Origin: Streptomyces sp. NBC_01216
GTDB lineage: Bacteria; Actinomycetota; Actinomycetes; Streptomycetales; Streptomycetaceae
Assembly: GCF_035994945.1 (NCBI RefSeq)
Contig: NZ_CP108677.1
Span: forward strand, 5,952,001 to 6,016,000
DNA length: 64,000 bases
Reading direction: 5' to 3'
This document shows, piece by piece, positions 10,626 to 48,727 of this stretch (position 1 is its first letter; the number at the start of each line of letters is the position of its first letter). The notes beneath the pieces were generated by a model. That model was not told the DNA's origin. It searched no databases and worked only from the letters and a program-made list of their open reading frames with translations. The position numbers were made by a program, and so were the translations under genes.

Positions 10626-11411
10626 ATGATCACGGCCAGGAGCCTTTTCCAGGAGATCATCGACGACGACGAGTCCTTCCGGCTGTTCTGCTCCATCGCC
10701 GCAAGCGGCGAGGCGCAGGGAGGCTGGGAGAACGCCAGGATCGCCGCGCTCGTCGCCCCGGGCATGCGGGACCTGACCCCCAAGATCACCCGGCACGGCG
10801 CCGACGAGGACAAGCACGGGCGGATCTTCAACGCCCTGATGCGCAAGCGCGGCCTGGAACCCGTACCGGTCCCCCCGGAGACCGACTACACCATGCTCCT
10901 GGAGCAGCGCGGGATCGGCCTCGCCCACGAGAAGCTGCGCCGGGACGAGCCACTGAGCGAGGCCGACGTGGTGGTCTACCTCGCCCACAGCAGGGTGACG
11001 GAACAGCGGGCGGCCGACCAGATGGACATGCTGGTCACCTCCTTCGGCGACCATCCCGAACTGGGCAAGGCCATCCACCTGATCTGCAACGACGAGGAGA
11101 ACCACCTCGCCTACTGCCACGAGGAACTACTGCGCCTCGCGCGCGCCGGACACGGGCGGCTCATCCAGCGGACCCTGCGCGAGTCCGCGCTCACCGAGAT
11201 CGGGGTCTACCGCGACGTCAGCCTGGCCGTGATGAGCCACATGGGCCGCCTCCTGAGGTGGCCGCGGCCCAAGTCGGCCGCGCTCGCCGCCGGCATCCGC
11301 GCGATGTACGCGTGGGAGCGGGTCGCCGGCTGGCACCGGATGGTCGACCTGAGGATTCCCGAGCGGCGCAACGCGCTGGGCGGCCCCGCGACCCCCGCTC
11401 CCGCCTTCTGA
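10626..11411 (+). CDS. Ferritin-like di-iron domain protein
   Basis: A 261-residue, mostly helical protein. Acidic metal-ligand pairs typical of ferritin-like four-helix bundles are visible as D-E-D-K-H-G-R near residue 60 and D-E-E-N-H-L-A-Y-C-H-E-E near residue 157. ATG 10626 follows a GGAGGTGGCAG ribosome-binding site; the longer frame upstream does not. It could bind iron or act as a di-iron oxygenase; substrate unknown. It lies alone between the LLM gene and convergent corA, with a 236-base gap upstream that shows no other gene. Confidence 0.8.
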   Translation: MITARSLFQEIIDDDESFRLFCSIAASGEAQGGWENARIAALVAPGMRDLTPKITRHGADEDKHGRIFNALMRKRGLEPVPVPPETDYTMLLEQRGIGLAHEKLRRDEPLSEADVVVYLAHSRVTEQRAADQMDMLVTSFGDHPELGKAIHLICNDEENHLAYCHEELLRLARAGHGRLIQRTLRESALTEIGVYRDVSLAVMSHMGRLLRWPRPKSAALAAGIRAMYAWERVAGWHRMVDLRIPERRNALGGPATPAPAF

Positions 11412-11436
11412 CCGCCCGGCGCCGAGCGGCGCGGGG

Positions 11437-12420
11437 CTACATCCAGCCGCGCCGCTTGAACAGCCGGTACAGGCCGCCCACGGCCCCGGCCATCAGCACG
11501 ATGACCATCGGGTACGACCAGCCCCAGGCGAGTTCCGGCATGTGCGCGAAGTTCATGCCGTAGATCCCCGCGACCATCGTGGGGACGGCGGCCATGGCCG
11601 CCCAGGCCGAGATCTTCCGCATGTCGTCGTTCTGCCGCACGCCCATCTGCGCCAGATGCGCCGACAGCACGTCGGAGAGCAGCCGGTCCAGACCCTCCAC
11701 CTGCTCGTTGGCCCGGGTCAGGTGGTCGACGACGTCCCGGAAGAACGGCATGGCCTGCTCGTGCACGAACGGCACCGCCCCGGCCGCCAGCCGCTGCATC
11801 GGCGCCATCAGCGGCCCGCCGGCCCGCCGGAACTCGAGCACCTGGCGCTTGGCCGCGTAGATCCGCGCCGCGGTGTTGCCCGGCTTCCTGCCGACCGGCG
11901 CGAACACATCGGCCTCCAGCTCCTCCAGGTCGACCTGGAGCTCACCGGCCACGTCGATGTAGTGGTCGACGACCGCGTCGCTGATCGCGTACAGGACCGC
12001 CGTCGGGCCGTGCCGCAGCACCTCCGGCTCGGCCTCCAGCCGTCGCCGAACCGCCGCGAGCGGCGCGCCCTCGCCGTGCCGGACCGTCACCACGAACGAA
12101 TCGCCCAGGAAGACCATCAGCTCGTCCGTGCTGACGCGGTCGCTTTCCGGCTCGTAGACCACGGGTTTGAGGACCATGAAGAGCGAGTCCTCGTACACCT
12201 CCAGCTTCGGCCGCTGATGAGCCTTCAGCGCGTCCTCGACGGCCAGGGGGTGCAGCGCGAACTCGGCCGACACGTGATCGAACTCCGCCTCGGTCGGCTC
12301 GTACAGACCGACCCAGAGGAAGGCGTCCCCGCTCGCCCGGGCCTCCGCCAGGGCGGCGGACAGATCGGCGGGGCCGTCGGCACGAGCACCGCTCTTGTAG
12401 AGGGCAGAGTTCACGATCAC
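11437..12420 (-). CDS. corA: CorA-family magnesium/cobalt transporter
   Basis: A 327-residue membrane protein. A long acidic cytoplasmic N-terminal domain and helical stalk lead to two C-terminal transmembrane segments; the first ends in the signature Y-G-M-N-F (G-M-N filter), and the loop M-P-E-L-A-W-G precedes the last helix and a basic tail R-L-F-K-R-R-G-W-M. CorA forms pentameric channels for Mg2+ and related divalent cations. The start GTG at 12420 is chosen because family homology begins there. Divergent from the phosphatase gene. Confidence 0.93.
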   Translation of the reverse strand: MIVNSALYKSGARADGPADLSAALAEARASGDAFLWVGLYEPTEAEFDHVSAEFALHPLAVEDALKAHQRPKLEVYEDSLFMVLKPVVYEPESDRVSTDELMVFLGDSFVVTVRHGEGAPLAAVRRRLEAEPEVLRHGPTAVLYAISDAVVDHYIDVAGELQVDLEELEADVFAPVGRKPGNTAARIYAAKRQVLEFRRAGGPLMAPMQRLAAGAVPFVHEQAMPFFRDVVDHLTRANEQVEGLDRLLSDVLSAHLAQMGVRQNDDMRKISAWAAMAAVPTMVAGIYGMNFAHMPELAWGWSYPMVIVLMAGAVGGLYRLFKRRGWM

Positions 12421-12495
12421 GCCGGGTATTCTTCCCCGCCCCACCGGTTCCCGCACCCGTGCCCCGCGCCCGGCCGTGCCCCTACCCTTGCCGCC

Positions 12496-13185
12496 ATGGC
12501 CACGTTGCTCCTCGTCCGCCACGGACGTTCCACCGCCAACACCTCCGGGGTCCTCGCCGGGCGGATGCCCGGGGTCGCCCTCGACGAGCGCGGCGCCGCG
12601 CAGGCCGCCGCGCTCCCCGGACGGCTCGCCGCCGTGCCGCTGTCCGCCGCCGTCAGCAGCCCCCTGCAGCGCTGCCGCGAGACCCTCCGGCCGCTCCTGG
12701 ACGCCCGCCCCGGGCTGCCGTTGCACACCGAGGAGCGGATCAGCGAGTGCGACTACGGCGACTGGTCCGGTCGCAAGCTCGCCGAACTCAACGACGAACC
12801 CCTGATGGAAGTCGTCCAGGCGCACGCGTCCGCCGCGGCCTTCCCCGGCGGCGAGTCCATGCGCGCCATGCAGGCGCGGGCCGTCGACGCCGTACGGGAC
12901 TGGAACGCCCGGATCGAGGCCGAGCACGGCGAGGACGCCGTCTACCTGATGTGCTCGCACGGCGACCTCATCAAGTCGATCGTCGCGGACGCGCTCGGCA
13001 TGCACCTCGACCTCTTCCAGCGCATCCACGTCGATCCCTGCTCCGTCACCGCCGTGCGCTACACCCGGGTGCGCCCCTTCCTGGTCCGACTCGGCGACAC
13101 CGGCGACCTCGCCGCGCTCGCGCCCCGGGAGAGCCCGGACACCCAGGGGACCGCGGAGGTCGGGGGCGGCGCGGGCGCACCGTGA
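12496..13185 (+). CDS. Histidine phosphatase (phosphoglycerate mutase-like)
   Basis: A 229-residue cytoplasmic phosphatase. The catalytic R-H-G motif is at residues 8-10 (L-V-R-H-G-R-S), the second Arg in S-P-L-Q-R-C-R-E-T, the acid in I-S-E-C-D-Y-G-D-W, and the second His in C-S-H-G-D. These are the hallmark residues of histidine phosphatase branch 1. It belongs with the actinobacterial subgroup found next to DUF3090 genes, as here. The last 25 residues are low complexity. The gene leads the co-directional set phosphatase - DUF3090 - kinase-like - mshC. Substrate unknown. Confidence 0.9.
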   Translation: MATLLLVRHGRSTANTSGVLAGRMPGVALDERGAAQAAALPGRLAAVPLSAAVSSPLQRCRETLRPLLDARPGLPLHTEERISECDYGDWSGRKLAELNDEPLMEVVQAHASAAAFPGGESMRAMQARAVDAVRDWNARIEAEHGEDAVYLMCSHGDLIKSIVADALGMHLDLFQRIHVDPCSVTAVRYTRVRPFLVRLGDTGDLAALAPRESPDTQGTAEVGGGAGAP

Positions 13186-13262
13186 TCCATCCGCGCAGTA
13201 GGGTGGACGGGCCGCTGTAGCGCGGGCCTTCACCGCTGTCGAGACGCAAGGGAGTCAGGGAC

Positions 13263-13853
13263 GTGTCCCGTCAGGTGTTCCTCTACGACCCACCGGAGCG
13301 TTTCGTGGCCGGTACGGTCGGGCTGCCTGGCCGCCGTACGTTCTTCCTTCAGGCGTCCGCGGCGGGCCGGGTCACCAGCGTGGCCCTGGAGAAGACCCAG
13401 GTGGCCGCCCTCGCCGAACGCATCGACGAACTCCTCGACGAGGTCGTGCGCCGCACCGGCGGCAACGCCCCCGTCCCGGCCGTCGCCCCCGCCGACATCG
13501 CGGACACCGCCCCGCTGGACGCTCCGGTGGAGGAGGAGTTCCGGGTCGGCACGATGGCACTGGCCTGGGACGGCGAGGAACAGCGCATGATCGTCGAGGC
13601 GCAGGCGCTGGTGGAACTCGACGCCGAGTCCGACGAAGACCTCGCCGATGCCGAGGAACGCCTGCTCCAGGACGAGGAGAACGGCCCGCCGATGCTGCGC
13701 GTCCGGCTCACCGGAGCGCAGGCCCGTGCCTTCGCCAAGCGCGCCCTCGACGTGGTCAACGCGGGCCGTCCGCCATGCCCGCTGTGCAGCCTGCCGCTCG
13801 ACCCCGAGGGCCATGTGTGCCCGCGCCAGAACGGATACCGGCGCGGCGCATGA
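13263..13853 (+). CDS. DUF3090 family protein
   Basis: A 196-residue protein starting with GTG (M-S-R-Q-V-F-L-Y-D-P-P-E-R-F). It matches the actinobacterial DUF3090 family: a beta-rich N-terminus, an acidic middle, and a C-terminal zinc-ribbon-like C-P-L-C ... G-H-V-C-P-R motif. Function is unknown. Its stop codon overlaps the ATG of the next gene (ATGA), so translation is coupled to the kinase-like gene that usually accompanies it near mshC. Confidence 0.9.
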   Translation: MSRQVFLYDPPERFVAGTVGLPGRRTFFLQASAAGRVTSVALEKTQVAALAERIDELLDEVVRRTGGNAPVPAVAPADIADTAPLDAPVEEEFRVGTMALAWDGEEQRMIVEAQALVELDAESDEDLADAEERLLQDEENGPPMLRVRLTGAQARAFAKRALDVVNAGRPPCPLCSLPLDPEGHVCPRQNGYRRGA

Positions 13854-39081: not shown

Positions 39082-39147
39082 CCCTGGTGCAGGGCCCGCA
39101 GCGCACCCTGATGCCCTCGCTGCTCGTGGCAGCGAGGGCATCAGTCG

Positions 39148-39693
39148 TCAGGCGGCGCGGGCTGTGCGTAACTGCGCGACCCACCTCGTGACCTCGGTCA
39201 GGTGCTCGGGCTGTAGACCGAGGTGCGGGGCGGGCTGAATGAGGAGGGTTGCCGTTCCCTTCGCAGTGCGTTCCACCGCCCATTCATGGTCGAGGCTGGT
39301 GAAGTCGTCGTCTATCCAGACGGCGGGGGCGTCGCCCAGCCATGCGTCGACGTGGTCGCGTTTCCACAGGTAGCCGTTGGGGTGGCTGGTGGTGATCTGC
39401 GGACGCGGGAGATCGACGTACGGCAGGGTCGGAAGGTCGAGGAGCGGGCCGATAAGGGCGGTGGCGTCCTGGCGCCAGCTGGTGCACCAGGCCGGGGTGA
39501 CCAGGCCGGTGCGGATCACGTCCATGAGCAGGTGGCCGTGGTCGGGGTTGAGCCAGACGGTGACCGGGTTGTCGGCGCTCCGGCCGGTGGGGACGACGTC
39601 GTGACGGGCGTGGGTGGCCGGGGTCGAGCCGTCCGCGTTGGGGAAGGGTATGAGGACGCCGTCGATGTCGAGGAGCAGGTAGGGCGGGCGCAT
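39148..39693 (-). CDS. HAD-fold hydrolase of the island operon
   Basis: A 181-residue protein with the HAD nucleophile motif near the start ([10 protein letters not shown]), a mid-protein T-S-W and the acidic W-I-D-D-D-F motif. It resembles small HAD proteins that lack a cap domain and act on nucleic acid ends or small phosphates. It is the last gene of a four-gene minus-strand set, 34 bases after the methyltransferase. ATG 39693 is favoured over an ATG four codons upstream. Confidence 0.75.
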
Positions 39694-39727
39694 CGGTTCC
39701 TCCAAGGGAAGCCGGGCGAATGGCTGA

Positions 39728-40420
39728 TCAGAGTTTGCGGGCGCGGATCAGCAGGGTGGTGGGCCAGTGGCCCATGCGGAGGTCGTGGAACTCCTGGGCT
39801 GAGGTGAGCCAGAAGCCCGCCTGACTGAGGTGCTTCTCCCACCGGTCCGTGGAGAACTCCCAGCGGGCGATGGGTAGGCGGGTGTGGTCGGGAAGGGTGA
39901 CGAAGTCCCGGCGCGGACGGTCGTCGCCGGAGGGGCTACGGCCGCCGCGCTGCGGGTGCGGGACGGAGAAGACGAGCACCCGGCCGGGCGTGAGGCGTTG
40001 GGCGATGGCCGGGAGCAGGAGCTCGGGGGCGACGAGACCGATGGCTCCGAAGACGGAGTAGATTGCGTCGAACTGCTCGTCGGAGGCGTGCAGGTAGTGC
40101 AGGGCGTGGCCGGCGACGAAGGTGAGGCTGTTCAGCCGTCCGTAGTGGGAGCGGGCGCGGCGGACCTGGAGGCCGACCAGGTCGACGCCGGTGACGTGGG
40201 CGCCGTGGCGGGTGGCGAGGTGGGCGGCGTTGTGGCCGGGGCCGCAGCCGAGTTCCAGGAGTCGCTTGCCGCGCAGGTCGGGGCCGAGGATCTCGGCGCC
40301 GGGACCTTGGCCAGGTCGGGTAGTCCATTCCATCCGGGCGGGTACAGCAAGCGGTTCGGCGAGTCCGGCGGCCGTGCGCTGGGCGGCGTGGGCGTGCCAG
40401 GGGGATGCCTGGGCGAGCAC
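39728..40420 (-). CDS. Class I SAM-dependent methyltransferase
   Basis: A 230-residue Rossmann-fold methyltransferase. Motif I is L-L-E-L-G-C-G-P-G-H-N near residue 55, with V-T-G-V-D-L as the acidic ribose-binding loop and F-D-A-I-Y-S-V-F-G-A-I-G as motif IV. The acceptor is unknown. The GTG at 40420 follows the kinase stop codon by one base (TGACGTG), so the two are coupled and probably act in one pathway. Confidence 0.85.
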   Translation of the reverse strand: MLAQASPWHAHAAQRTAAGLAEPLAVPARMEWTTRPGQGPGAEILGPDLRGKRLLELGCGPGHNAAHLATRHGAHVTGVDLVGLQVRRARSHYGRLNSLTFVAGHALHYLHASDEQFDAIYSVFGAIGLVAPELLLPAIAQRLTPGRVLVFSVPHPQRGGRSPSGDDRPRRDFVTLPDHTRLPIARWEFSTDRWEKHLSQAGFWLTSAQEFHDLRMGHWPTTLLIRARKL

Positions 40421-40421
40421 G

Positions 40422-41333
40422 TCAGATCTCCAGGAGGTGGAGGACGTCGGTGAGGTGGCGGCGGACGGCCTTGATGTAGGCGGGGTCGGTGGCCGGGTCG
40501 TTGATCCAGCGGATGGACTGCTCCATGAACCACTCGACGGCCCACATGCGGTGCCAGCCCAGGGCCCAGTGTTCGGCGGTGAGCCCGCCGCGTCGGGCGA
40601 GGGCGTCGGGGGTGCCGCCGGCGGTGACGTACTGCTCCAGGAAGACGCGCAGGCGCACGGGGTGCGGGGGCTCGATGGTGCCGTGCCAGCTGGCGAGGTC
40701 GAGCAGGCCGGGGCCCGTGAAGGCGCGGGCGAAGTCGAGCAGCCTCCAGCCGCGCTCGCCGATGTGGAGGCTGGTGGGGTGGAACTCGGAGTGCACCCAG
40801 CCGAACGGCTCCAGCGTCGCTCCGGCCGAGCGGGCCTCGGCGGCCTGGGCGATCCGGTCGAGCGCGTCCTCGACGTCGTCGGCCCCCTGCCATCGGTCGG
40901 CCTTGCGCAGCCGTTCGAGGTGCTCCAGCGCCCGGGCCGGGAGCGTCCGCAGCCGCTCCTGGTCGAGGACGGGCAAGGGCGGAGCCGTACGGGTTCCGTG
41001 CAGGATTACGGCCGCGGCGACGCCGTCGAGGTCGTTGGCCTCGCGGACGGACGGTCCGAGGTCCTCCATGAGCATGCCGAGCCAGCCGTCCAGGACGGCG
41101 GAGGCGTGGACCTGGGGGACGGGTACGCCGAGGGTGTGGGCCAGGCGGAGGGCCTGGTCCTCGCTGTCGAAGGGCTTCTTGGCGTACTTGAAGATGGCCG
41201 TGGAGCCGTCGGGGAAGGTCACGCGCTCGACGCCGGACATGGACCACACGCGCACCTCCTCCCGTACGGCGGTGGTCTGGCCGGTCGCGGTGAGCAGGTT
41301 GTCGAGGAGTTCGGCGCTGGGGTTCGTGGTCAC
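40422..41333 (-). CDS. APH-fold kinase-like protein with altered catalytic motif
   Basis: A 303-residue protein of the aminoglycoside phosphotransferase/choline kinase fold: an N-lobe with A-I-F-K-Y-A-K (ATP Lys), a hinge-region M-L-M-E-D-L-G, and a C-lobe where the catalytic loop reads V-H-S-E-F-H-P-T-S-L rather than H-G-D-x-H-P-x-N, followed by L-L-D-F-A-R-A. The general base Asp is thus Glu, and the metal-binding Asn is Ser. It may be a weak or dead kinase. GTG 41333 with GGAG upstream. It is coupled to the methyltransferase gene. Confidence 0.75.
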   Translation of the reverse strand: MTTNPSAELLDNLLTATGQTTAVREEVRVWSMSGVERVTFPDGSTAIFKYAKKPFDSEDQALRLAHTLGVPVPQVHASAVLDGWLGMLMEDLGPSVREANDLDGVAAAVILHGTRTAPPLPVLDQERLRTLPARALEHLERLRKADRWQGADDVEDALDRIAQAAEARSAGATLEPFGWVHSEFHPTSLHIGERGWRLLDFARAFTGPGLLDLASWHGTIEPPHPVRLRVFLEQYVTAGGTPDALARRGGLTAEHWALGWHRMWAVEWFMEQSIRWINDPATDPAYIKAVRRHLTDVLHLLEI

Positions 41334-41410
41334 GTGGGGCTCCGGGGAGGGGTGGTGGCGTCCGGGGCGGGCGAGGGATGCCGGCCCGCCCCGGAGCCTG
41401 ATCGGGTGGG

Positions 41411-42160
41411 TTAAGCGGCGGAGTTCACGCGGTGGGCGTAGACCTGCTCGATCCAGCCCGCCTTGAACGCGGCGAGGTCGTCGCGGAAGTTCGCCATCGA
41501 GGCACCGTAGGGCGCGACCACGCCGCCGGACTGGTCCGGCACGGACTGGCAGCCGTGCACGAGCCGGCCGCCGAGCGCGGCGTGCGCCTTGATGGACTCG
41601 ATGCGGCGGTGCTCGTTGAACCAGCCGCCGTGGTAGACCTCGTCGAGCATCTCGCCCATCTCGTCGTCCAGGTCGAAGACGACGGAGGTGGCGGCGGGGA
41701 AGAACCAGCACGGGCCGACGTTGGAGATGTGCCCGTCCAGCTCGACCTTGTTGAGCGCCATGAGCGTGGCCGCCTCGCGCAGCATCCGCAAATGGTCAGC
41801 GGTGATCTGCGGCAGACCGAGGCCGGCCAGGTGCTCGTCGCGGAAGAGGTACGCGTACACCTCGTACGCGGTGGCCAGGACGCGGGCCGCGTCGGACGTG
41901 GACTCGCTGTGCTGCTTGATGAAGTCGAGCGCGAGCTGCTCGACCGCGCTCTCGGTCGTCTCGTCCGCGTCCAGGAGCTGGGACTTGACCAGCTCCCAGT
42001 CGGCGACGAGCCAGGTGTTCGACTCGAAGCGGAAGAAGTACTCGGCCGGGTCGATGGTGATGCGCCGGCCGTCGACCTGGATGCCGGGCAGGCGGCTCCA
42101 GCGCGGGTCGAACGCCTCGGGCAGCTCGACCGTGATGGCCGTGGTGTCGATGGTGGTCAC
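41411..42160 (-). CDS. Unknown protein heading the island operon
   Basis: A 249-residue acidic protein (M-T-T-I-D-T-T-A-I-T-V). A middle helical region (about 60-135) is followed by V-G-P-C-W-F-F-P-A-A-T-S and a histidine/acid-rich stretch. I do not recognise the family. GTG 42160 has GGAG at suitable spacing. It is first in the minus-strand operon unknown - kinase-like - methyltransferase - HAD, divergent from the TPR regulator. Confidence 0.7.
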   Translation of the reverse strand: MTTIDTTAITVELPEAFDPRWSRLPGIQVDGRRITIDPAEYFFRFESNTWLVADWELVKSQLLDADETTESAVEQLALDFIKQHSESTSDAARVLATAYEVYAYLFRDEHLAGLGLPQITADHLRMLREAATLMALNKVELDGHISNVGPCWFFPAATSVVFDLDDEMGEMLDEVYHGGWFNEHRRIESIKAHAALGGRLVHGCQSVPDQSGGVVAPYGASMANFRDDLAAFKAGWIEQVYAHRVNSAA

Positions 42161-42384
42161 CGTGTCTCCGTCTCTGATTGGCCGGTCTCGGGCACAGGAA
42201 TGCCCGAGCCTGGTGTGGGCGTACGGAACTTCGGGGTGCCACCCGGACCCAAGGGGGAGTCTGGATCACGGTCGCGCCGTTCCGGGCGGCTGCTGATAAG
42301 TGAACCGGTGGTCACGCTCGGTGGGTACGGTGGAAGGCAGTTGAAGCGGTATACGCGGTTTACAGGTCCGGAGTGGAGGCGATC

Positions 42385-43740
42385 GTGGCGGCGCAGAGAG
42401 ACCCCAATTCCCGTCTGCGCGACGTCATCGCGGCGGTCGACTGCACCTACGAGGCCCTCGCCAGAGACGTGCGGCGCATCGCGGCCGAGAACGGCGAGAT
42501 CCTCCAGACCAACAAGTCGGCCATCTCGCACTGGGTGAACGGCACCCGCGCCCCGTCGGGCCGGGTAGGTCAGTACCTGGCCGAGGCGCTGTCCCGCCGA
42601 GCGGGACGCATGGTCTCCCAGACCGAGATCGGCCTCCAGGCCAGCGATGACGAAGCGCCGGCGGAATCCGACCCTGTCCTCGCCGCCACCGACCTGGGCC
42701 GCGCCGACGTCGAGCGCCGCCGCTTCCTCGCCATCGCGGCCTTCACCACCGCCGGCGTCGCCATGCCGCTCGGATACGACCACGAAGCCACTGCCCGCAT
42801 GCTCCGCGCCCGCACCGGCACGTCCCTGGTCGGCGCGGAGGACGTGGACGTCGTACGGCAGATCACCGCGGCCTTCAGCGCCGCCGACGAGCGCCTCGGC
42901 GGCGGGCACGGCCTGACCACCGTCACCGCGTACCTCGCCGACACCGCCGCCCCCATGCTGCGCGGACGCTTCCCCAGCGAAGCCTTACGCCGGGCCGCCT
43001 TCGGCGCCGTCGCCGAACTCGCCTACCTCGCAGGATGGAAGCACCACGACCTCGGCCAAGAAGGCGCCGCCCAGCGCTACTACCAGGTCGGCTACAAGCT
43101 CGCCTGCGAAGCCGACCCCCACGGCCACGCCGCCTGGATGATGCGCGCCCTCGCCCACCAGGCCCTCAGCCTCAAGCGGCCCCACCACTGCGTCGACCTC
43201 GTCGAAGGCGCCCTCCGCACAGGTCTCGGCCACGTCGACGGCCAGACCGAAGCGCTCCTCCATATCACGCACGCCCGCGCCTACGCCGCGGTCAACGAGA
43301 ACCCCTTGGCCGCGCGCGCCCTACTCGCCGCCGAGGACGCCCTCCTACGAGACGACGGCCCCCAGCCCAGCTACTCCCGCGTGAGCGGCCCCGCCGCCGG
43401 CACCGTGGCCAGCCACACCGCCCGCACCCTGACAGACCTCGCCGACCACATCGGCACGGAGCAGCAGCACCGGGACGCCCTCACACGCTGGGACCCCCAG
43501 AAGTACAAGCGCGTCCACGCCCTCACCCACGCCGACCTCGGCGACAGCCTCGCCGCCCAGGCCCGCGCCGACGAAGCCGTCGCCGCCTGGACCCAGGCCC
43601 TCGTGCTCATGGAGGGCATGACCTCCGACCGGACGCGCAAGGCGATCACCTCGATCCGTTCCACTCTGGCGATCTACCAGAGGCGCAAGGTACCCGGTGC
43701 CGCCGATCTCGCCCGCCGTGCTCGTGAGGCCCTCGCCTAA
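42385..43740 (+). CDS. XRE/TPR-type transcriptional regulator
   Basis: A 451-residue protein common in Streptomyces: an N-terminal helix-turn-helix-like region (about 1-75, with N-K-S-A-I-S-H-W-V-N-G), a short R-R-R-F-L segment near 105, and a helical tetratricopeptide-like C-terminal domain containing repeated A-R-A-L-L-A-A-E-D-A-L type helices. GTG 42385 follows GTGGAGGCGATC; an alternative GTG lies four codons upstream. It is divergent from the kinase/methyltransferase operon and probably regulates it, and is followed by a NUDIX gene. Confidence 0.8.
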   Translation: MAAQRDPNSRLRDVIAAVDCTYEALARDVRRIAAENGEILQTNKSAISHWVNGTRAPSGRVGQYLAEALSRRAGRMVSQTEIGLQASDDEAPAESDPVLAATDLGRADVERRRFLAIAAFTTAGVAMPLGYDHEATARMLRARTGTSLVGAEDVDVVRQITAAFSAADERLGGGHGLTTVTAYLADTAAPMLRGRFPSEALRRAAFGAVAELAYLAGWKHHDLGQEGAAQRYYQVGYKLACEADPHGHAAWMMRALAHQALSLKRPHHCVDLVEGALRTGLGHVDGQTEALLHITHARAYAAVNENPLAARALLAAEDALLRDDGPQPSYSRVSGPAAGTVASHTARTLTDLADHIGTEQQHRDALTRWDPQKYKRVHALTHADLGDSLAAQARADEAVAAWTQALVLMEGMTSDRTRKAITSIRSTLAIYQRRKVPGAADLARRAREALA

Positions 43741-43774
43741 CATGCCCAACAACCCGCCCGACGAAGGGAACACC

Positions 43775-44272
43775 GTGACCCAGCAGACCGACGACCAGCC
43801 CAAGGCCCTGAAGCCGGCGCTCGAATCCATGACCCTGCTGGTCGCCGCCGTCATCGTCCACGACAAGGCGACCAACCGCGTCGTCCTCCTCCAGCGCAGC
43901 GAGAACGCCAAGTTCGCCCAGGGCCTGTGGGACCTCCCCGTCGGCAAGAGCGAACCGGGCGAACCCATCACGGAGACGGCAGTCCGCGAGCTCTACGAGG
44001 AGACGGGCCTCACGGTGAAGCCCGAGTCCCTCAAGGTCGCCCACGTCATCCACGGCGCCTGGGGCGTCGAGGCCCCCAACGGCTTCCTCACCATCGTCTT
44101 CGCCGCCCACGACTGGTCCGGCAAACCAGAGAACCGCGAACCGCGCAAGCACGCCCAAGTCCGCTGGGTTGACGCCGACACCATCCCCGAAAACTTCGTG
44201 GACACCACCGCCAGCGCGCTCCGCCGCTATCTCTCCGACGGTCCCGAAGTATCCCTCGACGGCTGGCGCTAG
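43775..44272 (+). CDS. NUDIX hydrolase
   Basis: A 165-residue pyrophosphohydrolase. The complete Nudix box runs from about residue 57 to 78 (G-K-S-E-P-G-E ... A-V-R-E-L-Y-E-E-T-G-L), with all metal-binding Glu present. It hydrolyses a nucleoside diphosphate linked to some moiety; substrate unknown. The GTG 43775 has GAAGGGAAC upstream; an ATG at 43742, two bases after the regulator stop, would add 11 residues. Probably cotranscribed with the regulator. Confidence 0.88.
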   Translation: MTQQTDDQPKALKPALESMTLLVAAVIVHDKATNRVVLLQRSENAKFAQGLWDLPVGKSEPGEPITETAVRELYEETGLTVKPESLKVAHVIHGAWGVEAPNGFLTIVFAAHDWSGKPENREPRKHAQVRWVDADTIPENFVDTTASALRRYLSDGPEVSLDGWR

Positions 44273-44377
44273 ACCTACCGGAGCCAATCTCCCGGTCTCG
44301 GTCCTCACGTCCGGCTCGCCGCAACAGCGGTTCTGAACGGCCAAAACCAACTCCGCACCTCTCAGAGCAGAGCGCGT

Positions 44378-44734
44378 TCAGTTCGAGTCCTCTGCTGTCC
44401 GCACGCCGGCTAGTGTTTCCAGTCTCTCAACAATGCTGCGCCATTCATCGATAATCACGGCTGGGGCATCCACCATGCTCGACCTGCCATGCAGAATGTC
44501 CGATGCCCGACCATAAACATGCCTAACTAGACGCACCAAGCCGACCGCTTCCAGTACATTTTCTGGAGGGACTAGGGCGATCACCATAGAGAGCCGCCCC
44601 GTCACGTTATTAATGTACAGAAGTGGATTCTCTGGCCGGCATACCCGATGGTATGCCTCGATAGTTGCCAACTCGATGCGAAGCCTCAACTCAAAAACTT
44701 CAATGCGCCGCCGAGATGCACCGTCAAGCTTCAT
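44378..44734 (-). CDS. Small HEPN-like partner protein
   Basis: A 118-residue all-helical protein. A candidate HEPN active-site motif, R-A-S-D-I-L-H (R-x5-H), lies near residue 78, followed by G-R-S-S. HEPN domains are RNases or inactive scaffolds in toxin-antitoxin and phage-defence systems. ATG 44734 overlaps the stop codon of the ATPase gene as ATGA, so the two are translationally coupled. Base composition is clearly AT-richer than the host average. The family call rests on this short motif, helicity and context, so it is tentative. Confidence 0.6.
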   Translation of the reverse strand: MKLDGASRRRIEVFELRLRIELATIEAYHRVCRPENPLLYINNVTGRLSMVIALVPPENVLEAVGLVRLVRHVYGRASDILHGRSSMVDAPAVIIDEWRSIVERLETLAGVRTAEDSN

Positions 44735-47247
44735 GAGAAGACCCAGCCAGTGATCAATGCGCACCCTTCTCGCGCCTTATCGATTTCCAAGTTCAGATCC
44801 GCTTTCGCGCCATCCGATCCGTGGACTGCCTTGTTCCAACCACGCAGGTACGGTCCACAAATCCCGTTGAATTCATCGATCGGGTTTTTGCCAGCATGGG
44901 TCGCATTAATCAACCCTTCTGCGAAAGCCACCCTTTTCAAGGTGTTATCGAGCAGATCGATCGATTCGAGGTTGCGCGCCACATCCTGCCCCCGCGCCAA
45001 CGAGTAGCGGACAACGCAGGAATGCAGGGCATGGTCAACCGCCTGCCTACACAGCCCTCTCACAACCTGACCTTCAGTCAAATAGGCAGTGGGAGACGAC
45101 CGTGGCGCCCAAGTGACGATGTTTCGGGCATCATCCAGCAATACTCTCCACATCTCGTCCGTCGACTCGATGTCGATTTCGCCTTTCTCGACATCACGGC
45201 TCACTCTCCAAGCTTGTCCGTTTACCGCCCGAGCAAGGAGATGCTGCTTCAAGCGCTCATCATGAGTAAAAACTATCACTCGTCGCTCGGAACTGAGATC
45301 GACCAAAACCGACGCCAGACGGTCAACTCGAATCTCATCAAAAGCATGAACAGGGTCATCCAGAATCAAGAAAGAGAACGGCCCAGACTCGGCAGTAGAG
45401 AGCAACGGAGCAAGGAGAAAAGCGTTTCTCTGCCCAGCGCTCAGCATTGACAGCTGCAATTCTTGACCACTCGAATTGCTTACGCTTACATCAGCCCGGG
45501 TTGTCGTCAGGTGAATTCCGTTCAAGTAGATCCCAACATCCTCCAGCAGCTGCCTGACTCGCTTATCCGCCCTCTCCTTGAAGCGTTCAGTCCGCTCTTT
45601 GCGCAGCTTGTCGGCCAGAGTCGTAGAGCACTTCTTAGTCTCTTGCCACAGAGCGCTTTCCTTAGCTGTTTCCTGCTCCGTCCGCCACACATGCAGGAAG
45701 TTTTCAAGAGCCCCCCTGCGCTCACGAAGCCACTTACGTGTCACCTCGCTTGCTTCGACCGCCACGCCACTCGCCTCACCCCAGCCAGCGGTATTAGTGG
45801 AGTTCCTCAAGGCCAGGAATGCGTCCCGTACCTCCAATGCAGGCCGACTCCCGTGGTAACTCATTGCAGTGCGAAGGCGCTCTGCAACTGCCGCTGCACT
45901 CGCCGATGCAGTCCTGTGAGCGCCGCTTGACGAATGGATCAACTCAAGAACTTCTGCGACGTGACTCACAACAGCAGAAGCATCCCTGAGTTCACTCAAT
46001 GCATCACGCATCTCTTCGTGGATTGGCGCCAGTTCAGCGTGCCGCTCCACATTCTCATGCAGAGTCTGCACCCAATTATCAACTGCCGAATTACAAACGG
46101 GGCATGCTGAGCCCGGTGCAACCTCAACAGCATCTTTGTAAAGCGCGTCCAAATGCTGAGAGATTCTCGGACTCGTCAGCTCAGGGACGCCCTCCAGCTT
46201 CTGGAATGCAGCATCCACGGACGACAGTGACAACCTCAGGCGTTCCACGTCTACACTGGTGACTTCTACCGTCGGCAAACCACCGTCTACGAGCTTGTGA
46301 CTAATCAGCCAGCCCTCGATGCTGTCGGTAATTTCCGGCCAGGAGACATCTTCTATATCGACCGCCGGCTCCTTGAGACGAAATAGACGGTCAACTTCGG
46401 CGACTCGAACCTTTCCATCCCTGAGGGCGACATCGATCTTCTTCTTACTAGTAGAGGCAGCCTCACTCAGCTCGGAAACCAGCGCCTCCAGATGCGTGAA
46501 AGCCCCGCCCAGCGCGAGAAGATTGGCAATGTAACGCTGCAAATCATTGCTCTGCTGGACTCGCCTTTCCACCTCTGCGTAGGAAAAGACGGGCGGATGC
46601 CCTTCCAGTGCGTGACGCCATGTGCTTCCCATGTCAACACGGCGCACTTCCGCAGAGGAGGTCTTCCATTCGCCGTAGGCGTCGCTAACTTCACCGCCGT
46701 CGGTGAGTACGCACTTCAAGGTCAGCTCTTCACCCGTTCGTACGAGTGTGACCTCCGCCCACGATTTCGAACTGTCACGGGCCCGATTAATCTTTTCCCA
46801 GAGCGGATCGAACTTGCTTCGCCCCGTAGGCGCGGCTACCTCAGTCCACCATCCTGTCTTGCCTGACATCGCGGTACGAATCCCATCAGCAATGGTCGAC
46901 TTGCCGGATCCGTTCGGGCCGTGATAAATGCTGATTCCAGGAGAAGGATCGATCGTCATGGAGAGCTCAGACGTAGTCCCCTGGAACCCACAGAGACGCA
47001 ACCCCTTGATACTCCAGGCTTCGCCCTGAGTAGGATCGAGTGCGCCTGAGTTTTCACCCTGAAGTTGGTTAAGCAACGCCCGAAGGTTTTCCCATCCCGC
47101 CTTCGTCTTTGTAGCGCCGGCCTGCATCCTCGCGGCAGCTTCAGAAAGGTCGGCATAGGTGAGCAGAGAAAGCTTGTGCCCCGCACCACTGCGCTTCCTG
47201 CTCTCCGGAACTGCCGCATCAGGGGTTTGGTTGTTCATGACGGTCAT
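44731..47247 (-). CDS. Zinc-hook SMC/Rad50-like ATPase (RloC-like architecture)
   Basis: An 838-residue ABC-type ATPase. Walker A G-P-N-G-S-G-K-S-T lies near residue 110. Coiled-coil arms flank a zinc-hook motif C-P-V-C near 380. The ABC signature L-S-A-G-Q-R-N-A is near 600, Walker B F-L-I-L-D-D-P near 625, and the H-loop F-T-H-D follows. The last 150 residues are helical and end with R-G-W-N-K-A-V-H-G near 800, an R-x6-H pattern as in HEPN nucleases. The order ABC core, zinc hook, C-terminal nuclease-like domain recalls RloC/PrrC anticodon nucleases. ATG 47247 follows GGAG; GC content is much lower than in neighbours. Confidence 0.85.
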   Translation of the reverse strand: MTVMNNQTPDAAVPESRKRSGAGHKLSLLTYADLSEAAARMQAGATKTKAGWENLRALLNQLQGENSGALDPTQGEAWSIKGLRLCGFQGTTSELSMTIDPSPGISIYHGPNGSGKSTIADGIRTAMSGKTGWWTEVAAPTGRSKFDPLWEKINRARDSSKSWAEVTLVRTGEELTLKCVLTDGGEVSDAYGEWKTSSAEVRRVDMGSTWRHALEGHPPVFSYAEVERRVQQSNDLQRYIANLLALGGAFTHLEALVSELSEAASTSKKKIDVALRDGKVRVAEVDRLFRLKEPAVDIEDVSWPEITDSIEGWLISHKLVDGGLPTVEVTSVDVERLRLSLSSVDAAFQKLEGVPELTSPRISQHLDALYKDAVEVAPGSACPVCNSAVDNWVQTLHENVERHAELAPIHEEMRDALSELRDASAVVSHVAEVLELIHSSSGAHRTASASAAAVAERLRTAMSYHGSRPALEVRDAFLALRNSTNTAGWGEASGVAVEASEVTRKWLRERRGALENFLHVWRTEQETAKESALWQETKKCSTTLADKLRKERTERFKERADKRVRQLLEDVGIYLNGIHLTTTRADVSVSNSSGQELQLSMLSAGQRNAFLLAPLLSTAESGPFSFLILDDPVHAFDEIRVDRLASVLVDLSSERRVIVFTHDERLKQHLLARAVNGQAWRVSRDVEKGEIDIESTDEMWRVLLDDARNIVTWAPRSSPTAYLTEGQVVRGLCRQAVDHALHSCVVRYSLARGQDVARNLESIDLLDNTLKRVAFAEGLINATHAGKNPIDEFNGICGPYLRGWNKAVHGSDGAKADLNLEIDKAREGCALITGWVFS

Positions 47248-47640
47248 GCCGACTCCACTGCATGGTGCTCGTGCCGCATGTAGGGACGTAATGCTAGCTG
47301 TGTGCCGGGGCAGAAGTATGGGGTTTTTGGAGCCCCTCAGCATCCACGACGCATTTATGCCTTTAGCTGGCTACGTTCCTATTTCTTACGTTATGACCAA
47401 TATGATGCTGGTCGTTCCACTCGCCGGGTTCACATCAGACAGCGGAGGATCGCCTTGAGGGTGCGGGCGCCTGGCTCAGGATGCATCGACGTCGCTGCTA
47501 TTTCGTGAGCGCTCGGAGTCCGCACACAGTCCGCAGGACACCCGATCAGGACCGTCGCACCCCATCGCCAGTCAACAGCAAAAGGCCAGGTCAGCGACCT
47601 ACAGGAGAGATCCCCGCAGGTCACCGACCCGGCCCGTTAC
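47248..47640. other. AT-richer intergenic region before the IS element
   Basis: About 390 bases containing no supportable gene. It is upstream of the zinc-hook ATPase and should hold its promoter; composition changes gradually from AT-rich near the ATPase to GC-rich near the IS. No repeat or hairpin of note was seen. Confidence 0.4.
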
Positions 47641-48727
47641 TAGGTCCTGTCTGAAGTTCGGATCATGAGGGCGGTGTGATGCTGCGGAGCCAGAGCATCG
47701 CACCGCACAGGTGCAGTCCGGCTTCGTAGCTGGTTGGGGTCTTGTCGTAGCGGGTGGCGATGCCCCGCCAGTTTCGGAGACGGTTGATGCACCGCTCGAC
47801 GGTGTTTCTCTTCTTGTAGAGCGCGGAGTCGTGGCTGACGGGGCGGCCTCCCTTGCGGCCTTTCTTCTTCCGGTTGGCGGCCTGGTCCTTCTTCTCCGGG
47901 ATGACGGCCTTGATGTTGCGTTTGCGCAGGTGAGCACGGTTGCTGCGGGACGAGTACGCCTTGTCGCCGGCTATGGCGTCCGGCCGGGTCCTCGGGCGCC
48001 CGACCGGCCCGCGGACCTTCACCTTCTCCAGCACCGGGACGAACTGCGGACTGTCACCGCACTGCCCGGGCGTGAGCACGAACGCCAGCGGACGGCAGCG
48101 CCGGTCAGCCGCCAGATGAATCTTGCTGGTCAGCCCACCCCTCGAACGCCCCAGGTCAGCGGCGGTCAAGCGGATCCGGTACCGTCGGCGAACCCGGCGT
48201 CGCTCCTCGCGGGCGGGGTCCTCTTCCTGCCGGTCTTGCGGCTGTTGTCCTTCCGCCGGGCCCCCTTTTCGGCCTCGACAGCCGCCTCCAGGGCTGCCAG
48301 CTGCTCCGGATCCAGGATCATCCCGGCGGCATGGTGGTGTGCCCGTGCTGTCGCCGAGTCCACGCTGACCAGCCCCAGGTCGACCTGGTCGCGGGCGGCA
48401 GCTTCCGCGATCACCATCTCCATCAGATTCTGGAAGATGCCCTGCTTCGCCCAGACCTGGAAGCGGTCGTAGGAACTCTGCCAGGGGCCGAACTCCTCCG
48501 GCAGGTCGCGCCACGGGCTGCCGGTCCGAAAGCGCCACATCGCCGCGTTGAAGTATTTCCGCAGGTCGGGGATAGGCCCGACCGCGGCGATCGGGAGATG
48601 GGGCTCAATCAGGGACCACTGCTCGTCGGTGAGATCGCCTCGCGCCATGGCCACTTGACTACCAAGGACACCCCGTCGCGCGCAGGCGATCCCACACATT
48701 CGTGATCTGGACTTCAGACAGGACCTA
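47641..48727 (-). mobile_element. Complete IS5-type insertion sequence
   Basis: The ends are inverted repeats, GGTCCTGTCTGAAGT identical at both ends and 23 of 26 positions matching further in. They are flanked by TA on each side (47641-47642 and 48726-48727), consistent with a TA target duplication. The body (47643-48725) encodes one transposase in two frames. The left flank is island DNA; the right flank begins with the candidate attR repeat. Confidence 0.9.
47663..48648 (-). CDS. IS5-family transposase, joined by -1 frameshift
   Basis: The first frame runs from ATG 48648 (M-A-R-G-D-L-T-D-E-Q-W) to a stop at 48166. The second continues in the -1 frame to 47663. The slippery heptamer A-AAG-GGG lies at 48268-48262, just where the frames should join. 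The fused product of about 328 residues has the DDE triad: D in S-V-D-S-A-T-A-R, D in A-G-D-K-A-Y, and E in N-T-V-E-R-C-I-N-R-L. It cuts and joins the IS ends. Both frames are intact, so the element is probably active. Confidence 0.88.

Follow-up and report, generated by a model that had tools for sequence, protein, structure and literature searches.

A Rad50-like zinc-hook ATPase paired with a small, predicted HEPN-like protein: a candidate defence module in Streptomyces sp. NBC_01216

The ATPase gene and its small partner

We analyzed a 64,000-nucleotide stretch of the Streptomyces sp. NBC_01216 genome (contig NZ_CP108677.1, positions 5,952,001 to 6,016,000), hereafter the window, which carries a pair of overlapping genes on its minus strand. 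The larger gene (44731-47247) codes for a Rad50/SMC-like zinc-hook ATP-binding cassette (ABC) ATPase with a helical C-terminal domain, 838 amino acids long when read from the ATG at 47247; residues are numbered here on the 835-amino-acid version (P0001), which starts from the ATG at 47238. The smaller gene (44378-44734) encodes a predicted HEPN-like partner of 118 amino acids and overlaps the ATPase stop codon through an ATGA at 44731-44734. An initial annotation, made from the letters alone, had pointed out this overlap and proposed a defence unit in which an RloC-like ATPase is coupled to a second HEPN-like subunit.

All the elements that it had listed for the large protein are present on the minus strand: Walker A GPNGSGKST (residues 107-115; 46894-46920), the zinc hook CPVC (379-382; 46093-46104) flanked by helices 358-373 and 389-420, the ABC signature LSAGQ (599-603; 45430-45444), the Walker B region FLILDDP (623-629; 45352-45372) and the C-terminal helical domain (698-835; 44734-45147) with helices 722-748, 753-761, 766-776, 786-802 and 812-830. 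In an alignment of 26 ATPases (18 P rows including the query, seven loci and the remote relative P0037), K113, S114, S600, G602, D627, D628 and H659 were each found in 26/26, the hook cysteines C379 and C382 in 25/26 and Q603 in 24/26. Two further alignments held the query with 20 of 34 family members (A1) and 19 rows with L016 left out (A3). The split ABC head with its coiled coil, a Pfam match to SMC_N (52.8 bits) and Rad50 and SbcC as the closest folds support a Rad50-type ATPase, which presumably dimerises via the CPVC hook. The PADLOC mad3 profile scored 75 bits, aligned to only part of its 374-residue ATPase model, and a literature search on mad3 turned up no relevant paper. The closest folds, as well as an SbcC-like PHROG match (38.8 bits), would also fit an SbcCD/Rad50-like DNA processing or repair complex devoid of RNase activity. 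We consider this quite improbable, as the C-terminal domain is absent from Rad50, no Mre11/SbcD-like partner gene is adjacent in the window, and the patchy, mobile distribution and DISARM linkage described below argue against it.

A scan of genome contigs returned 37 loci, of which the 14 with a clear family member were examined (L003-L016), the other 23 being weak or short matches. These 14 loci come from Streptomyces, Arthrobacter, Clavibacter, Pseudonocardia and Brevibacterium, and L016 holds the ATPase end only. A small gene adjoins the ATPase stop in every one of them (12 by pattern, L012 and L016 by eye), the spacing ranging from an overlap of a few bases to five bases apart; in L012 the overlap lacks a usual start codon. 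The small-protein profile was found in four of 394 Streptomycetaceae genomes, and the same four carry a full family ATPase (>1000 bits) next to it. The ATPase and the small gene form a unit, and the separate second subunit is a conserved partner that does co-occur with the ATPase elsewhere. The family is rare, since the small profile was detected in a class-wide sample only in its own genome (1/394). A mirror-tree comparison of the two proteins gave a Spearman correlation of 0.68 over 28 pairs of eight loci, to which we gave no weight because such a correlation is expected from shared ancestry alone. No family match was found in viral contigs, where RloC was likewise not found, or in phage records, and plasmids yielded two remote matches, both belonging to the sister clade treated below.

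Conserved residues of the C-terminal domain and the small protein

The initial annotation had read HEPN RNase sites from an R-x6-H at the ATPase C-terminus and an R-x5-H in the small protein. Both stretches are literally there (R799-x6-H806 and R76-x5-H82) and both histidines are conserved, but the arginines are not: R799 is Arg in only 8/26 ATPases, and position 76 of the small protein holds Arg in 51 and Glu in 34 of 100 sequences. R799 and R76 were therefore rejected as a catalytic motif on conservation, and neither protein family keeps the R-x4-6-H motif of HEPN proteins. Five positions before the His, where HEPN proteins canonically have Arg, 25/26 ATPases have Trp and the small proteins have Thr, Ser, Cys, Ala or Ile. 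HEPN families without this Arg, such as Parep1/8, that retain the His together with further basic residues are known from the available part of PMC3710099.

Residues of another kind are strongly conserved in the C-terminal domain of the ATPase. R731 is Arg in 26/26, D735 is Asp in 24/26 and Glu in 2/26, and H806 is His in 26/26, while W801 and N802 are kept in 25 and 24 of the sequences. R731-x3-D735 (45034-45048, minus strand) lies on the domain's first long helix, and H806 in WNKAVHG (residues 801-807; 44818-44838, minus strand). The WNKAVH part (801-806) is similar to RNIAVH in the HEPN toxin SO_3166, with Trp replacing Arg; R97, N98 and H102 matter in that toxin, according to the accessible text of PMC4621449.

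For the small protein, a profile search yielded 101 homologs, every one without a Pfam domain, and 99 of them were aligned with the query (100 rows; P0043 and P0045 left out). R17 and E21 (R17-x3-E21; 44672-44686, minus strand) are kept in 98/98 rows having a letter there. Y74, H82, G83, R84 and W98 are invariant in 100/100, and D79 is Asp in 99/100; the segment from Y74 to SDILHGR84 corresponds to 44483-44515 (minus strand). The HGR at residues 82-84 places an Arg two positions after the His, at the site taken by Tyr104 in HepT (HepT position from the part of PMC4621449 at hand). From the residue counts of both alignments, the two proteins have in common an Arg-x3-acid on the first long helix and a His that closely follows a later one. 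Moreover, the helix layout of the C-terminal domain, taken from a model of the whole ATPase chain, is co-linear with that of the small protein, and no homology was detected between these two.

The predicted model of the small protein was closest, among its best VIA matches, to HepT of the MntA-HepT pair. This moderate support makes a HEPN-like fold, as initially annotated, probable for the modelled small protein. Lamassu and DISARM chains were absent among the VIA rows for this model, which excludes nothing. Searches of the PDB yielded no HEPN candidate: a single-sequence search had a MarR regulator as its best match (E 0.15), and the profile retrieved light-harvesting proteins alone (E >= 0.022), which were taken as chance. 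Among BFVD structures, no match was obtained at E <= 0.001.

The likeness to HepT, the tight gene overlap and the obligate pairing could also suggest a toxin-antitoxin arrangement, with the RNase in one HEPN-like chain and, in the other, an inhibitor of HEPN-like type that has lost part of its catalytic function and is released when ATP is turned over. HEPN-MNT pairs are unlike an ATPase-first order with long coiled coils. Furthermore, neither chain looks degenerate, since the His is retained in both, as is the Arg-x3-acid pair, and we regard this arrangement as improbable.

The missing canonical Arg in both proteins would also be in line with a Lamassu-like system, in which the small protein acts as an adaptor without catalysis, in the manner of LmuC with LmuB, the C-terminal domain docks or senses, and killing is left to DISARM, a host nuclease or another effector. 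LmuB profiles rank with the top PADLOC matches (69 bits, partial; 87 bits for L010), Foldseek matched the ATPase to Lamassu LmuB chains as well as others (9hqu_A, E 2.5e-9), and zinc hooks of LmuB and small middle components are described in the available part of PMC10586767. Against it, no LmuA-like or other effector-like gene adjoins the pair in the window, and polar residues in the form of the RloC triad are conserved in both chains beyond apparent scaffold needs. A Lamassu-like role is, in our opinion, rather unlikely.

A sister clade is built alike. Outside the family, 48 more Streptomycetaceae genomes had a match to the ATPase profile, and 26 loci from them were fetched and examined (L044-L069). 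All 26 encode a zinc-hook ATPase (CPxCG or CAVCG) with a C-terminal LCRxxLE...GAH and, directly downstream, a small gene (23 by pattern, 3 by eye). The Arg, Glu and His of the ATPase C-terminal domain are found in 26, 24 and 26 of these loci, and the small protein has Arg in 25/26, Glu or Asp in 26/26 and His in 24/26. Aligned over their full length, the small proteins of both clades place Arg, Glu and His in matching columns, although the match is weak (probability 11%, E 0.0027, against no more than 1.2% for controls). L058 and L062 are the only sister loci whose ATPase C-terminus lacks the Glu of Arg-x3-Glu, and their small proteins carry Lys in place of His. This loss across both chains may be a co-loss; the two loci are alike and it may represent one event. 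A UvrD-like helicase gene follows the sister-clade pair on both Streptomyces plasmids looked at (L087, L088).

Mobility and defence context

The G+C content drops from approximately 0.70 to 0.54-0.58 across 44.5-47.5 kb of the window. On one side of the pair lies an IS4/5-family transposase domain (DUF4096; 48166-48699, minus strand, with an overlapping frame at 47663-48538) and on the other a convergent gene for a NUDIX hydrolase (43697-44272, plus strand). The initial description of an AT-rich, island-like setting among mobile genes holds because of this dip and the nearby transposase domain. An 8,546-bp stretch (window 39102-47644) is 98.8% identical to genome G761, in which the other flank has only 87% identity and is located elsewhere. 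In three other genomes (G754, G221, G758), the NUDIX block is present and ends at window 44169-44273, with no ATPase within the 12-19 kb fetched. The NUDIX gene thus marks the right edge of a block that also occurs without the pair, and together with the G761 identity this indicates that the pair was gained or lost at the edge of a moving block. In G754, a low-GC set of ABC-transporter-like genes, seen by eye, follows the NUDIX block in place of the pair (L078, approximately 10700-13800), which suggests a spot with changing cargo. The moving block that holds the putative RNase also encodes a HAD_SAK_2 domain, described for RNA repair proteins (39148-39705; 28.8 bits, cut-off 27.5).

Mobile elements were also observed near the pair in other loci, with RepSA, which initiates replication of pSAM2-type integrative elements, in L004 and L006, an integrase in L012 and a resolvase immediately upstream in L014. 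The survey of neighbours for phage-defence genes proposed in the initial annotation found DISARM genes. In a Pseudonocardia locus (L015:1818-17270), the pair is inserted between drmMI and drmA of a DISARM operon, with drmD (1214 bits), drmMI (1546), the ATPase, the small gene, drmA (925) and drmB (214) on one strand. A partial drmA (498 bits) was found downstream of the pair in L011, for which the downstream side was scanned, and Pfam assigned none of the neighbours scanned in the window to DISARM. Since the two genes travel together in other actinobacteria and once inside an anti-phage operon, they probably represent an uncharacterised defence system, and we hold a role in defence to be highly probable.

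Proposed mechanism and comparison with known systems

We propose a horizontally moved two-gene defence module in which a HEPN-like RNase is gated by the Rad50-like ATPase, a reading on which we are evenly divided. The ATPase, dimerised via its hook, would sense a DNA state linked to infection. Its C-terminal domain and the co-translated small subunit would bind each other as two HEPN-like domains and jointly form an RNase cutting tRNA or mRNA at the Arg/acid/His sets. At rest the RNase would be kept inactive; ATP-driven motion of the heads would free it, translation would stop and the infection would abort, giving protection against phage. We give the putative RNase activity an even chance, and an active site shared between the chains is possible rather than probable. 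In its fullest form, which we advance only tentatively, the proposal is a new family of defence systems comprising two or more deep clades. Its HEPN-like RNase would be heteromeric, with the ATPase C-terminal domain supplying one half of the catalytic unit and the small subunit the other, and the active site would be non-canonical (Arg-x3-Asp/Glu and His per chain, Trp for the canonical HEPN Arg in the ATPase). The ATPase heads would gate assembly of the RNase, and DISARM could take up the module as a second, abortive line.

If true, ATPase-gated RNase defence, as in RloC and PrrC, would gain a two-subunit form, DISARM would have a possible abortive arm, a hitherto unnamed small-protein family would receive a name, and the HEPN active site would be of a kind that we did not find described in the available parts of the literature searched. 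The candidate key residues (R731, D735 and H806 in the ATPase; R17, E21, H82 and R84 in the small protein) make the idea directly testable. The pair of an ATPase and a small HEPN-like protein is not described in the accessible text of PMC3710099, PMC2610378, PMC4621449, PMC10586767, PMC12839542 and PMC10482375; the main ABC-ATPase classification was outside this search, and an earlier mention is possible.

The ABC-HEPN fusions APECO1_4465 and ERFG_01251 are ABC ATPases with a HEPN C-terminus found on mobile islands, but they are single chains with R-x4-6-H, and no second HEPN-like gene is described for them in the available part of PMC3710099. Lamassu LmuB-LmuC likewise combines a Rad50-like zinc-hook ATPase with a small protein, whereas here the small gene comes after, not before, the ATPase, the C-terminal domain is putatively HEPN-like and no LmuA effector gene was seen. 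The HEPN toxins of MNT pairs (HepT, SO_3166) share a small helical protein with a His past the end of the third helix; in contrast, the small protein described here has no R-x4-H, has the invariant HGR and is partnered by an ATPase rather than a nucleotidyltransferase.

RloC, a Rad50-like anticodon nuclease, shares the split ABC architecture, the coiled coil, the CPxC hook (25/26 in the present ATPases, with helices on either side), the C-terminal helical domain and an Arg-x3-acid...His order. The catalytic triad of RloC and PrrC is Arg-x3-Glu-x36-52-His, and alanine at any of the three positions abolished RloC activity (available part of PMC2610378). Both chains have this order, R731/D735/H806 and R17/E21/H82, which the initial annotation had not reported, but the spacing is longer, with x70 in the ATPase (R731-x3-[D/E]735-x70-H806, 26/26) and x60 in the small protein. 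The ATPase also differs in having mostly Asp as the acid and a separate second subunit, predicted to be HEPN-like. The likeness to RloC and PrrC thus stands for architecture and residue order, but membership was rejected. AAA_13 (PF13166) gave no match for P0001 at E <= 1, and four relatives, at 15.6-23.1 bits, did not reach its cut-off of 36 bits, while a true RloC-like control protein scored 510.5 bits. BLASTP against this control aligned the ATPase motifs alone, and the C-termini of four RloC proteins (M-R-x3-E-x37-H), few as they are, had no profile match to the present C-terminal domains. Based on these three comparisons, the pair may work like RloC without being one.
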